A stretch of 50,439 nucleotides of DNA from positions 1 to 50,439 of the forward strand of contig NZ_BKZP01000024.1 of assembly GCF_008974185.1 (NCBI RefSeq), read 5' to 3'. Shown here piece after piece: positions 14,066 to 45,251 of the stretch; the first letter of the stretch is position 1, and every line of letters starts with the position of its first letter. Made by a program: the position numbers and the translations under genes. The notes beneath the pieces were generated by a model, which was given only the letters and a program-made list of their open reading frames with translations, was not told where the DNA came from and ran no database searches. The stretch is from Weizmannia acidilactici. GTDB taxonomy: Bacteria > Bacillota > Bacilli > Bacillales > Bacillaceae_C.

Positions 14066-14222
14066 TGCTTATCAAGAGAGGCGGAGGGACTGGCCCGAGG
14101 AAACCTCAGCAACAGATTCTTTTAAAGAAAACTGTGCTAATTCCAGCAAGCGACCAAAGCTTGGAAGATAAGTTAAGGAGAATGTGAAAGCCCTCTTCTT
14201 AACTTTTCGGAAGGGGGCTTTC
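14066..14222 (+). promoter_or_regulatory. SAM-I (S-box) riboswitch with terminator platform
   Basis: The aptamer (14066-14174) has the P1 strands GCTTATC and GATAAGT, the signature GGCGGAGGGACTGGCCC, AAACCTCAGCAAC and the GTGCTAATTCCAGC block of the S-box family. The expression platform is visible: AAGTTAAG (14170-14177) pairs with CTTAACTT (14198-14205) as the antiterminator, while AAAGCCC (14187-14193) pairs with GGGCTTT (14215-14221) as the terminator. SAM binding should favour termination, so yezD is expected to be on when methionine/SAM is scarce. Confidence 0.95.
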
Positions 14223-14350
14223 CATTTGCCGGAAGAGAAATTGATCAAACTGAACGGGGACCCGTTTCATAAAAGGATTTTCAACATCTGCATTTGCTGA
14301 TTGGACCACCAAAAGCATGTGTAAAATATTATTTTGGGGGTAGAAAAAGA

Positions 14351-14530
14351 TTGGCTTATATTGATGAATCAAGGTTGACTCACATTATTGAATCGCTGAA
14401 AAAACTCGAATTTGGAACGGTTATCATCTCGATCCACGAGGGGAGTATCACACAGATTGAAACAACAGAGAAAGTCCGGTTCGCATTGGAAAAGAAAAAA
14501 GCGCATATCGCCAAACAAAGGATGAGCTAA
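14351..14530 (+). CDS. yezD: YezD family small protein (DUF2292)
   Basis: A 59-residue soluble protein of the YezD/DUF2292 family, a small family often found with sulfur-assimilation genes in Bacilli; its biochemical role is not established. Features are RLTHIIESLKKLEFGTV and the beta-strand-rich IISIHEGSITQIETTEK. The start is taken as TTG (14351) because GGGGG lies nine bases upstream; the open frame extends 19 codons further but without a site. It is the only gene under the SAM riboswitch and faces the ssu operon tail to tail, fitting a shared sulfur-limitation theme. Confidence 0.8.
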   Translation: MAYIDESRLTHIIESLKKLEFGTVIISIHEGSITQIETTEKVRFALEKKKAHIAKQRMS

Positions 14531-42258: not shown

Positions 42259-42325
42259 TGAAACGGCAGCCGAAAATGTTCTTTCCAACAGTAAAATGAT
42301 GGCTTATAATTAGTAATTGACATTT

Positions 42326-42502
42326 AAATACGGGCTTGGGCGATGGAAATAGGTGAAAATCCTATACGGTCCCGCCACTGTGATGGAAAAACTTTTCCTA
42401 AGTCAGGTCTTTCTCCCAAGCTGTCGGTTTATTTGGAGCCTACGAGGTATAGGCGAAAAATTTTTTCTGCCCTTGTATACCTCTGCGTACAAGGGTTTTT
42501 TT
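42326..42502 (+). promoter_or_regulatory. Cobalamin riboswitch with terminator platform
   Basis: The aptamer (about 42331-42424) carries the conserved blocks AGGTGAAAATCC, CGGTCCCGCCACTGTGATG and AAGTCAGGTCTTTC, closed by GCTTGGG/CCCAAGC pairing. The platform has a terminator CCCTTGTA (42470-42477) / TACAAGGG (42488-42495) followed by T7. A competing antiterminator is visible: GAGGTATA (42444-42451) with TATACCTC (42476-42483). Cobalamin binding should terminate transcription of the three genes downstream. A TATAAT at 42305-42310 is the likely -10. Confidence 0.95.
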
Positions 42503-42521
42503 ATGGAAAGGAGAGAGTGAT

Positions 42522-43910
42522 ATGGTTGGAAAAAGGTTGAGGGGACTCATCTGGGGGATAGCCTTCGTTTTGGCCTTCGCGGTTCCGTCACATAGTTTTG
42601 CGGCTGTTTCGGTAAGCAAAGACATTGCGGATACAGCTTCATACTTTAAATCATCAGCATTAAATTCCGATTTTGTGGTGGCTGCATTGGCGAAGGAAAA
42701 TCTGCTGACAGCCAATGAAATCAAACAGTACCGCAGCGTTATAAAAGAAAGGGTTAATTCCAAAACATTAACCGGAACGGAACTCGACAAAACGATCATT
42801 GCTTTAAAAGCGATCGGCGAGGATCCGGCAAATTTTGAAGGCAAAAATCTCGTGAGAAGCGTGTTTGAAACAAAGGAAGAAAGCACTACGACCGGCTACG
42901 CCTACGATTTAATCGCCTTGAATACGGATAATTATTCGATTCCGGGCGATGCGCCGAATACGCCGGCAAAAATCGCAGCCAAACTTGTGGATTTAGAGCT
43001 TCCAGACGGCGGTTGGAGCTGGGGCCCGTCCGCAACGGCCTCGGATGTGGATTCAACCGGGATGGTGCTGACCGCTCTCGGGACGTATCAGGATAGGCAT
43101 GATGAGGATGTAAAAAATGCCATACAGGACGGCATTAAATACTTAAAAGCGGCGGAAAAGGACAATGCCGGCTTTGACAACTGGGGTATTAATTCATGCA
43201 GCACCGCCCAGGCCATTATAGGACTGACTTCCGTTGATGTTGACCCTACAACAGGGGATTTTGTAAAAAGCGGCACAAATCCGGTATCGATGCTCAGCAC
43301 TTTTAAGGATACAAAAAACGGGGGCTACAAATGGATGGCAACGAGCGATGCTTCCGACAGCTTTTCCACAGAACAGGTGCTTCAGGCACTCGTCGCCTAT
43401 GACCTTTTCCAAAAAGGAGATACGCTGTACGATTTTACGCAAAAAAGCAGTACGGGCAGCACAGCCGCAACGGAAAACGGAAACAGCAATCCGGATTCGG
43501 GCAATACGGCTTCAAAATCAGCCGGATCAGGAAACAGCAGTACGGATACCGCAAGCCAATCAAGTTCCAATACAGCATCCGGCAATTCTGCGGCTGCCAC
43601 GAATGTGATTGAAAAGAATACAAAAGAAGTGATCACCAAAACCAATACCATCACGAAAAACAACACCATTACCAAAAAGGCGGTGGACACAAAACAAACG
43701 CCGGCAAAAACGAAAAAAACTTCGAATGCCGATAAAAAAGCAGCCACTGCAAAGGCTTCAGCTGCACCGGCAGAAAAAGAGCAGCAGCCCCAAAAAGTGG
43801 TGACCACAAAAACAACGGGCGTCTCTCCTGTGCACGGTTGGGTCGGCTCCATTTCGACCGGTGTAGGCGTCATCCTGCTTGTCATTCGGAAAAGGCTGTT
43901 GGGGGTGTGA
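42522..43910 (+). CDS. Membrane-anchored prenyltransferase-like alpha/alpha-toroid protein, putative cobalamin-binding (intrinsic factor-like alpha domain)
   Basis: A 462-residue exported protein: signal peptide (residues 1-27, ending HSFAA), then a helical-repeat domain (about 35-305) of the prenyltransferase/squalene-cyclase-like toroid type, with LPDGGWSWGPSATASDVDSTGMVLTAL and SCSTAQAIIGL repeats (fragments at 160-186 and 225-235). Next come a Ser/Thr/Asn-rich linker (308-355), a Lys-rich stalk (355-425) and a C-terminal hydrophobic anchor with a basic end (about 436-462). Animal intrinsic factor and transcobalamin have this toroid as their alpha domain. GGAGAGAGTGAT precedes the ATG. Control by a cobalamin riboswitch and a DUF4430 partner next door argue for B12 capture at the cell surface; binding is inferred. 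Confidence 0.75.
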   Translation: MVGKRLRGLIWGIAFVLAFAVPSHSFAAVSVSKDIADTASYFKSSALNSDFVVAALAKENLLTANEIKQYRSVIKERVNSKTLTGTELDKTIIALKAIGEDPANFEGKNLVRSVFETKEESTTTGYAYDLIALNTDNYSIPGDAPNTPAKIAAKLVDLELPDGGWSWGPSATASDVDSTGMVLTALGTYQDRHDEDVKNAIQDGIKYLKAAEKDNAGFDNWGINSCSTAQAIIGLTSVDVDPTTGDFVKSGTNPVSMLSTFKDTKNGGYKWMATSDASDSFSTEQVLQALVAYDLFQKGDTLYDFTQKSSTGSTAATENGNSNPDSGNTASKSAGSGNSSTDTASQSSSNTASGNSAAATNVIEKNTKEVITKTNTITKNNTITKKAVDTKQTPAKTKKTSNADKKAATAKASAAPAEKEQQPQKVVTTKTTGVSPVHGWVGSISTGVGVILLVIRKRLLGV

Positions 43911-43916
43911 CCGGGA

Positions 43917-44639
43917 ATGAAATTAAAAAGTATCATCATTGACAGTGTTGCGGTGCTTTTGATCGCGTTCGGCGCCTGGTTTTTTATCGATGGTTTCCAT
44001 ACTGAAACAAAAACGGTCAAAACGTATTCTGCGGCCACACAAACTGCAAGCATCCCAGCCAAATCGGAGGATGCAGCGCAAACAAGCACCGCTGCCGGCA
44101 GCAGTGGCAGTAAAACCAAATCAGACAGCAACCCAAGTGCTGCAAACAGCAAATCCGGCAGCTCCAATGATACACTCAGCAAATCTTCTACTAAGAGCAA
44201 AACCGGGGAAACGCCGGCTTCAAAAACGGCTACAACGGTCAGCACAACCCAAAGTACGTCATCCGGCGCTTTTTCATCAGATTCTGGAAGCAGCATCGCA
44301 GGCAGCAGCCCCAATGCATCTTCCGAAAAAAAAGCCGAAACGGTTTCTTTAACGGTTAAAGGCTACAAAGGAACCATTTTTAGCGGCAAATATGCATACC
44401 ACAGCGGCGATACCGCCTTTACGCTGTTAAAAACCGCTGCTTCTGCGGAAGGTATCAGCCTCGATTACTCCGGATCTGGTGCAACCGCCTATGTGAAAGG
44501 CATTGACGGGCAGAATGAAGGGGATAAAGGCGGCATGAGCGGCTGGAAATATAAAGTGAACGGCAAGGAGCCGAATTATTCAGCGGGGACGTATAAACTG
44601 AAAGCCGGCGACCAGGTCGTATGGTACTATTCTGAATAG
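43917..44639 (+). CDS. Membrane-tethered DUF4430 protein (intrinsic factor-like beta domain)
   Basis: A 240-residue protein with an N-terminal uncleaved signal anchor (about 4-23), a long Ser/Thr/Ala-rich spacer (30-140) and a C-terminal DUF4430 domain (about 145-240): VSLTVKGYKGTIF, HSGDTAFTLLKTAAS, GGMSGWKYKVNGKEPN and LKAGDQVVWYYSE. DUF4430 corresponds to the beta domain that, with the alpha toroid, sandwiches cobalamin in intrinsic factor and transcobalamin. It starts six bases after the toroid gene's stop, so the two are likely made together. A cobalamin role is inferred from fold family and riboswitch control. Confidence 0.78.
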   Translation: MKLKSIIIDSVAVLLIAFGAWFFIDGFHTETKTVKTYSAATQTASIPAKSEDAAQTSTAAGSSGSKTKSDSNPSAANSKSGSSNDTLSKSSTKSKTGETPASKTATTVSTTQSTSSGAFSSDSGSSIAGSSPNASSEKKAETVSLTVKGYKGTIFSGKYAYHSGDTAFTLLKTAASAEGISLDYSGSGATAYVKGIDGQNEGDKGGMSGWKYKVNGKEPNYSAGTYKLKAGDQVVWYYSE

Positions 44640-44651
44640 GAGATGTTTCAA

Positions 44652-45215
44652 ATGGAAAAACAGCCGGTTGAAAACAGAAAATCGGCCAAAACGGCTTCAC
44701 AGGTAACGAGAAAGATTGCCCTCCTCGCTGTGCTGGCCGCACTGAGCATCGCCGGAAGAATTTTTATGGCTTCGATTCCGAATGTCCAGCCGTGCACCGT
44801 CATCATTATTTGCAGTTCATTCGTATTCGGGATCCGTTTCGGGCTGGCCCTTGCATTTTTAACCGTCTTCGGTTCCGACATGTTTCTCGGCATGGGTTTT
44901 TTTGCCATCATGCAGTTTATTGCCTGGGGAAGTGTCGCCGTGCTTTCCGGCCTGCTCGGCAAGAAACAGTTTTACAAAAAAGTCCCGCATATTGTGTTGT
45001 GTTTGTATGCTGGATTTACCGGCATTCTGTTCGGCTTTATGGTTTCATTGAATTATTTATTTATCGGCGGGCCGTATGCGTTTTGGACTTACTACCTTGC
45101 CGGCCTGCTTTTTGATGGCTACCATGCTGCAGGGAACTTTGTGATTTACTTGATTTTGGGCCCAATCCTGATCAAATTAATTGCAAAAGAAAAAGAACGG
45201 ATATACGGCGTTTAG
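44652..45215 (+). CDS. ECF transporter S component, putative cobalamin-specific
   Basis: A 187-residue S-component with about six membrane segments: RKIALLAVLAALSIAGRIFM (EcfT-docking helix), QPCTVIIICSSFVFGIRFG and FGSDMFLGMGFFAIMQFIAWG. It resembles the CblT/CbrT-type S-components found under B12 riboswitches. The start is taken as ATG 44652, nine bases after AGGAG; ATG 44643 abuts the site too closely. It should accept cobalamin from the two surface proteins and work with the genome's shared ECF module. No EcfA/T is encoded here. Confidence 0.85.
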   Translation: MEKQPVENRKSAKTASQVTRKIALLAVLAALSIAGRIFMASIPNVQPCTVIIICSSFVFGIRFGLALAFLTVFGSDMFLGMGFFAIMQFIAWGSVAVLSGLLGKKQFYKKVPHIVLCLYAGFTGILFGFMVSLNYLFIGGPYAFWTYYLAGLLFDGYHAAGNFVIYLILGPILIKLIAKEKERIYGV

Positions 45216-45216
45216 G

Positions 45217-45251
45217 AACAAGGCTGCCCCTTTGTTGCGGGCAGCCTTGTT
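45217..45251 (+). terminator. Terminator of the cobalamin operon
   Basis: AACAAGGCTGCCC (45217-45229) and GGGCAGCCTTGTT (45239-45251) form a perfect 13-bp stem directly after the ECF gene; the T run is short. Confidence 0.8.

Follow-up and report, generated by a model that had tools for sequence, protein, structure and literature searches.

We analysed a 50,439-nt contig of Weizmannia acidilactici (NZ_BKZP01000024.1, assembly GCF_008974185.1), referred to here as the window. It contains an adenosylcobalamin (AdoCbl) riboswitch followed on the same strand by three open reading frames (ORFs) of 462, 240 and 190 amino acids (aa), with gaps of 6 and 3 nt between them (Table 1). Their products, which we call P1, P2 and P3, are a toroid protein, a DUF4430 protein and a predicted S-component of an energy-coupling factor (ECF) transporter. 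Below we argue that this operon probably encodes a system for the capture and import of vitamin B12.

Table 1. Features of the riboswitch operon, in window coordinates
Feature	Position	Strand	Evidence
Sigma-70-like promoter, TTTCCA-17-TATAAT	42282-42310	+	consensus scan
AdoCbl (cobalamin) riboswitch aptamer, RF01482	42318-42465	+	covariance-model match
Putative antiterminator strand GAGGTATA, 3' side of the aptamer	42444-42451	+	read from sequence; pairs with 42476-42483
Intrinsic terminator hairpin with T tail, between riboswitch and P1 gene	42469-42502	+	scan, 10 pairs
P1: signal peptide, alpha/alpha toroid, stalk, C-terminal membrane segment	42522-43910	+	ORF, Pfam, model
P2: N-terminal membrane anchor, stalk, C-terminal DUF4430	43917-44639	+	ORF, Pfam
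P3: ECF S-component, CbrT-like	44643-45215	+	ORF, Pfam, PDB match
GC-rich hairpin downstream of the P3 stop codon, possibly terminating the operon	45217-45251		by eye; absent from the terminator scan listing

The riboswitch match found with cmscan (E 1.7e-17) is full-length, covering model positions 1-149 of 149, and scores 98 bits against a curated gathering score of 50. In the minimum-energy fold, GAGGTATA pairs with part of the terminator, with a z-score of only -1.39. No variation was seen in GAGGTATA or its partner TATACCTC across 4/4 aligned genus members (the window and three others), in which the terminator stem is also largely kept. The terminator scan listed 9 sites of this kind in the region, with 4.7 expected; the promoter scan was near chance (5 such sites against 3.9 expected), so that the promoter is weak by itself. 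Riboswitch, terminator and antiterminator together are likely the anatomy of a transcriptional OFF switch, from which we infer the direction of switching.

P1 gave a weak Pfam match to SQHop_cyclase_C (E 4.2e-5, below the curated cut-off). We predicted the fold of the region 42585-43511 using an alignment of 61 sequences (P1 and 60 others). The folded part was predicted to be all-helical, with a mean predicted local distance difference test (pLDDT) score of 91.2 and a predicted TM-score (pTM) of 0.88, and the model matched alpha/alpha toroids in a PDB search. The TM-score relative to the query (TMq) was 0.57-0.60 for transcobalamin (0.58-0.60 for 4zrp_A, 2bb5 and 7qbg_C) and 0.54-0.56 for intrinsic factor (3kq4 and 2pmv), with 12-18% identity between the P1 toroid and the carrier chains listed. 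After the toroid, P1 has a Thr/Ala/Ser/Lys-rich stalk of about 120 aa, and its C-terminus consists of TTGVSPVHGWVG, a membrane segment and an RKR tail. No LPXTG-like motif was read before this segment, while many Bacillaceae relatives carry LPNTAT or a similar motif ahead of theirs. The signal peptide, membrane segments and stalks of P1 and P2 were read from the sequence by eye.

P2 matches DUF4430 (PF14478) with an E-value of 3.7e-20 and 72.6 bits, against a cut-off of 23.8, over profile positions 1-71 of 72. The domain spans aa 164-239 (44406-44633) and is preceded by an N-terminal membrane anchor and a Ser/Thr/Ala/Lys stalk of about 110 aa; no lipobox was seen at the N-terminus. A sequence-profile link from DUF4430 to the solved carriers was dropped as too weak (E 0.52), and a fold search was used instead. 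The fold of this half was examined on a natural fusion, the locus L134 of Hazenella coriacea, in which a DUF4430 domain and then a toroid lie in one chain (L plus a number denotes our loci). The model of the fused protein (pLDDT 82.7, pTM 0.65) has well-folded domains. The human transcobalamin beta domain in isolated form is matched both apo (5no0) and cyanocobalamin-bound (5np4), with 24% identity across 106 columns and a TM-score relative to the target (TMt) of 0.75; whole transcobalamin chains are matched as well, over 303-342 columns. Judging from the lengths of these Foldseek alignments, whose ranges were not printed, the former match would correspond to the DUF4430 part and the latter mainly to the toroid. 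The same model also matches a Ruminococcus gnavus protein solved by structural genomics, PDB 3u7z ("putative metal binding protein"), over about 100 columns with a TMt of 0.72-0.73; this protein may be an unrecognised bacterial B12-binding domain.

P3 matches ECF S-component families in Pfam (E about 1e-7). A single solved sequence was matched below E 0.001: 6fnp_A, with an E-value of 1.7e-22 and residues 23-177 aligned to 10-167. This structure is ECF-CbrT, the B12 transporter of Lactobacillus delbrueckii, which is described as moving both cobalamin and cobinamide (PMC5997447). By its sequence P3 is a CbrT-type S-component, for which we predict cobalamin transport. No EcfT or EcfA gene was found within the window operon or in the clusters of the three other genus members. 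The single EcfT of the host genome lies outside the operon, close to an EcfA, and P3 would therefore have to share that module.

An earlier note on this stretch had described a cobalamin-riboswitch operon encoding surface-anchored, stalked versions of the alpha and beta halves of intrinsic factor and transcobalamin, followed by an ECF S-component. The riboswitch, the anchors and flexible stalks, the S-component as third gene and the resemblance of P1 to the alpha half all agree with our results. The identification of DUF4430 with the beta half is supported by the model of the fused relative, P2 itself being known from its sequence only. The note's clamping of B12 between the halves and its hand-over to the importer are predictions. 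Its suggestion that the kit replaces the usual BtuF lipoprotein seems less apt. Since CbrT on its own has a high affinity for cobalamin according to its description (PMC5997447), the two surface proteins are better viewed as a front end for the ECF importer.

We next turn to the relatives. DUF4430 was present in 10/34 genomes of the family sample, and the family part of our first survey used loci from the nine positive genomes besides the window. Three genus members had the same three genes under an RF01482 riboswitch, and six members of other genera had a larger cluster under RF00174. In 5/6 of these larger clusters we found, after the riboswitch, a protein with two DUF4430 domains, a toroid and a wall-sorting signal, then a sortase (its PF04203 match was checked in L030), a DUF4430 lipoprotein, EcfT, a fused EcfA pair and an S-component. 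A second DUF4430 place in one family genome (L033) had no toroid, S-component or riboswitch, and another family genome (L023) had a DUF4430 match below the cut-off.

At class level, DUF4430 was detected in 141/398 genomes and RF00174 in 275/398. The class part of the first survey comprised 58 stretches from DUF4430-positive genomes; where places were listed, roughly one genome was taken for each genus, and some extra stretches were added. Together with the family part and the window it yielded 46 loci with both toroid and DUF4430, four of which (L080-L083) had been picked because a riboswitch had already been seen. The riboswitch was directly upstream of the first cluster gene in 44/46. In L088 a sortase gene comes first and the riboswitch follows it, 174 nt before the toroid gene; in L089 it lies about 11 kb upstream. 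A second survey scanned contigs by the toroid alignment alone, with one conserved peptide pattern, and the best 80 of 143 confirmed stretches gave 76 distinct loci, 10 of them repeating first-survey loci. All 76 contained DUF4430; an S-component was found in 60/76, EcfT in 60/76, an EcfA-like gene in 63/76 and, at a stricter cut, a sortase-like gene in 7/76, with distant genes and stretches cut by a contig end scored as misses. Of the 76 loci, 73 had a cobalamin riboswitch, always on the strand of the toroid, and in 72/76 it lay at most 600 nt upstream of a cluster gene (62/66 when repeats are left out); in L106 it was 6.5 kb upstream. None was found in L131, L142 or L114, the last of which starts 76 nt before the gene.

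Genomes of the class sample with an RF00174 match carry from one to at least six riboswitches each in about 1-8 Mb, so that by our estimate, which is not a run control, chance would place only a few in the 1.35 Mb surveyed. Toroid, DUF4430 and riboswitch occur together far more often than chance would give. Since many second-survey loci come from Paenibacillus, they represent fewer independent events than loci. Four Paenibacillus loci (L100, L118, L145 and L160) encode surface proteins 1,719-1,769 aa long that combine two toroids with three or four DUF4430 domains and, by eye, end in SLH-like repeats.

Over both surveys, DUF4430 was present in 122/122 toroid loci (loci had been selected by DUF4430 in the first survey but not in the second). 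Toroid and DUF4430 lie within one ORF in 101/143 toroid proteins (92/132 without repeats), while 25/122 toroid loci, the window included, have no fused ORF (23/112 without repeats). Most toroid proteins seen are fused to DUF4430, and several lineages keep the two domains on separate proteins. The natural fusion is the strongest sign that both parts would act together. Full clusters commonly hold a separate DUF4430 protein beside the fused one, and a lipobox-like motif lies close to the N-terminus in 63/101 solo DUF4430 proteins of toroid loci. The genus of the window appears to have a smaller, split and membrane-tethered version, with the halves encoded by two genes, unlike single-chain transcobalamin and intrinsic factor. 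This version seems reduced, having no LPXTG, no sortase or ECF module gene in the operon and no lipobox. Two expectations of the earlier note can be judged here. The co-occurrence with B12 riboswitches that it had proposed to survey is common, and toroid clusters are not found mostly under other regulators; the split that it had emphasised is real in the window but not unique to it.

DUF4430 also occurs with an S-component in 18 loci that have neither toroid nor ECF module (including L036 and L037, whose short solo DUF4430 domains were missed by our local profile and found by Pfam). The N[VIM]QP motif shared by P3 and CbrT is present in 16/21 S-components of toroid-less loci. A clear riboswitch was found upstream in 8/18 of these loci, a weak one in L037 (E 0.0011) and none in nine. 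Such loci can sit with B12 genes. In L035 (8912-12749) a class II ribonucleotide reductase, an S-component, a DUF4430 protein and a cobalamin adenosyltransferase form one row, and in L034, where a riboswitch is present, DUF4430 and S-component adjoin an adenosyltransferase. The L035 row resembles nrdJ-cbrS-cbrT-pduO of L. delbrueckii, by analogy with which CbrS might be a DUF4430 protein. Two further loci, L045 and L050 (7.5-10.4 kb), have in a row a DUF4430 protein, a protein of 223 aa (L045) or 242 aa (L050), an ATP-binding cassette (ABC)-type ATPase and an S-component. The 223-aa protein had no Pfam match and no cobalamin riboswitch was found in either locus; these rows possibly serve another ligand.

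The host genome encodes MetH and IcmF. CbiC, the one marker of corrinoid synthesis searched for, was not found in it, and the cell seems unable to make corrinoids. Two cobalamin riboswitches were identified in this genome with RF00174: that of the operon, and one (L180:5894-6092, minus strand, contig C7) ahead of a ribonucleotide reductase alpha gene, after which comes a gene of 367 aa. The second riboswitch suggests that a B12-dependent reductase is also present. The host also has FecCD-type permeases with ATPases and a binding protein nearby; in NCBIfam these partners are closest to siderophore-type models, in every case below the curated cut-off. A further weak FecCD match lies in a 285-aa ORF, which from its neighbours we take for a zinc-type permease. 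Another FecCD-type permease (L185:2799-3701, minus strand, contig C3) looks broken, since its matches fall in three separate frames.

From these data we consider, with a probability of about 0.8, that the operon is a riboswitch-controlled kit for the capture and import of vitamin B12 (corrinoids), in which two tethered half-sites would feed P3. When intracellular AdoCbl is low, the riboswitch would let transcription pass the terminator. P1 would present an intrinsic-factor-like toroid on a stalk held by its C-terminal membrane segment, and P2 a transcobalamin-beta-like DUF4430 domain on a stalk held by its N-terminal one; the length of the stalks would let the two membrane-bound halves meet and hold a corrinoid between them, as do the alpha and beta domains of transcobalamin. 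The captured corrinoid would be handed to P3, which would dock on the single EcfT/EcfA module of the cell for ATP-driven uptake, and once imported it could serve MetH and IcmF. The animal carriers offer a precedent for such split half-sites: separately expressed transcobalamin alpha and beta domains are reported to assemble on cobalamin (PMC5599065), and the intrinsic factor fragments IF30 and IF20 still bind cyanocobalamin tightly, as described in PMC6257451. A bolder proposal, which we advance tentatively and as falling somewhat short of even odds, is that of a natural split intrinsic factor. Here the tethered half-sites would close around B12 by ligand-induced assembly and the complex would dock on the CbrT-type S-component, the kit, tethered to wall or membrane, being a general front end for ECF import of B12 across Bacilli that preserves the state from which the animal carriers came.

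Several observations weigh against a joint B12 site feeding P3. By E-value, terpene cyclases match the P1 toroid as well as transcobalamin does, and the squalene-hopene cyclase 8pak_B reaches a TMq of 0.61, although most other terpene cyclases listed have a lower TMq than transcobalamin. With the DUF4430 profile, haptocorrin (4kki) is hit only at E 0.52 and ranks below four unrelated chains. In the fused L134 model, the longest matches to transcobalamin (332-342 columns) have a root-mean-square deviation of 8-12, the linker is unstructured, no docking is defined and a closed clamp was not obtained. Splitting transcobalamin into its two domains is reported to have lowered its affinity for cobalamin (PMC5599065). 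Further, 10/18 toroid-less loci with DUF4430 and an S-component lack a clear riboswitch, and DUF4430 thus need not always mean B12; since our riboswitch model R1 was built from the RF00174-type sequences of toroid/DUF4430 clusters, other riboswitch types may have been missed there. The N[VIM]QP motif is found in only 12/102 S-components of toroid loci, six of the 12 being from the window, its genus or repeats of it; CbrT-like specificity is therefore not transferable to all, and in many full clusters the S-component is more distant (30% identity between P3 and that of L030). Finally, a BtuD model matches one FecCD-associated ATPase of the host, below its cut-off, and a B12-specific BtuFCD might also be present in this cell.

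The alternatives differ widely in how well they fit these data. Least credible of all is that P1 is a terpene cyclase or prenyltransferase-like enzyme. It would explain the SQHop_cyclase_C match, and the toroid profile does match a squalene-hopene cyclase with an E-value of 1.6e-20. DxDD is the catalytic acid motif of type II terpene cyclases of the squalene-hopene kind, and a DxDD[TSA] motif was found in 0/180 toroid domains. P1 furthermore has a signal peptide and a surface anchor, and its kind of toroid is linked to DUF4430 and riboswitches. We rejected the cyclase reading on the missing motif and the surface location. Hardly more probable is a function outside uptake, such as adhesion, for P1 and P2 as surface proteins under B12 regulation. 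Long Ser/Thr-rich stalks would suit such a role, and many relatives are very large multidomain surface proteins; the S-component and EcfT each present in 60/76 toroid loci, as well as the fold matches to B12 carriers, argue for uptake instead.

The main rival, rather unlikely in our view and still the best of the alternatives, is a relay, in which toroid, DUF4430 and S-component would act in sequence and never clamp one ligand jointly, in the manner of the staphylococcal wall-to-membrane heme relay. DUF4430 without a toroid in many loci is consistent with it, as is the missing fixed docking in the L134 model, and the separate, often lipobox-bearing DUF4430 protein of full clusters would fit a relay step. 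What favours a joint site over a relay is the frequent fusion of the two domains in one ORF, together with the resemblance of both folds to the transcobalamin halves, which sandwich B12 as described by Burroughs et al. (PMC1796856). A distinct question is which corrinoid is bound. That the ligand is not cobalamin but another corrinoid, for example cobinamide or pseudocobalamin, seems to us unlikely, and less probable than the relay. In its favour, CbrT is described as transporting cobinamide too (PMC5997447), the transcobalamin beta domain as binding it (PMC5599065), and what the riboswitch detects is the cofactor inside the cell rather than the form taken up. With CbiC absent, full corrinoid synthesis is not expected in the host, which speaks for cobalamin itself, although genes completing cobinamide were not searched for.

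Elsewhere in the window, the neighbours of the operon resemble htpG and a type I restriction system by eye. A S-adenosylmethionine (SAM) riboswitch (14066-14174, plus strand, 91.6 bits) is followed by a terminator-like hairpin, seen by eye, and by a 78-aa ORF (14294-14530, plus strand), presumably a YezD-type small protein.

We found no binding or uptake experiment on bacterial toroid and DUF4430 proteins in the open-licence PMC literature, nor any experimental test there of extracellular B12 capture before ECF import in Gram-positive bacteria. The locus, a compact operon of three genes behind a riboswitch in the genus of Heyndrickxia coagulans, offers a test case for a B12 receptor made of the two domains found in the human carriers. 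Should the halves work as a pair, the 2007 proposal that animal B12 carriers were taken from Gram-positive bacteria would become easier to test. The halves would then constitute a ligand-driven split receptor feeding an ECF importer, and DUF4430, so widespread in the class sample, would gain a likely role.

The surface B12-binding lipoproteins of gut Bacteroides, BtuG and BtuH, have folds other than the toroid and DUF4430. Like the proposed kit, they are described as capturing B12 at the surface before import (PMC6143338); unlike it, they belong to a Gram-negative outer-membrane system. P3 is homologous to the CbrT of L. delbrueckii, which shares one ECF module with other S-components (PMC5997447). 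The cluster reported for that species is nrdJ-cbrS-cbrT-pduO, with no toroid mentioned in its description. A 2023 table annotates an "Additional lipoprotein component of putative cobalamin ECF transporter", and the DUF4430 protein LGG_02295 adjoins an rtpR gene (PMC9963975). This annotation ties a lipoprotein to a cobalamin ECF transporter; it has no toroid, while P2 of the window lacks a lipobox.

The closest precedent is that of Burroughs et al. 2007 (PMC1796856), who predicted B12 scavenging by proteins with toroid and SLBB domains encoded beside CbiO/CbiQ genes. Their account of the SLBB superfamily includes toroid fusions in both orders, second paralogous SLBB proteins in the operon, and Gram-positive hosts that usually lack key enzymes of B12 synthesis, and it proposes a transfer to animals. 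We equate their transcobalamin-like SLBB clade with DUF4430, and CbiO and CbiQ with proteins of the EcfA and EcfT kinds. Like the proteins they describe, the window has a surface toroid and an SLBB/DUF4430 domain. Unlike them, its halves are on two membrane-tethered proteins, an AdoCbl riboswitch precedes the genes, the S-component is CbrT-like, and the operon has no EcfT/EcfA and no sortase of its own. The main text of that paper contains none of the terms riboswitch, sortase, S-component, lipoprotein, CbrT and BtuF. The scavenging role put forward in the earlier note was thus already predicted in 2007. We regard the locus as real and well supported in kind, with a plausible mechanism, and as a variant of the predicted kind rather than a new category. 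With human transcobalamin, intrinsic factor and haptocorrin it shares the combination of an alpha/alpha toroid and a beta-grasp domain of the DUF4430 kind, which the animal carriers hold in one chain and the window divides between two tethered proteins.

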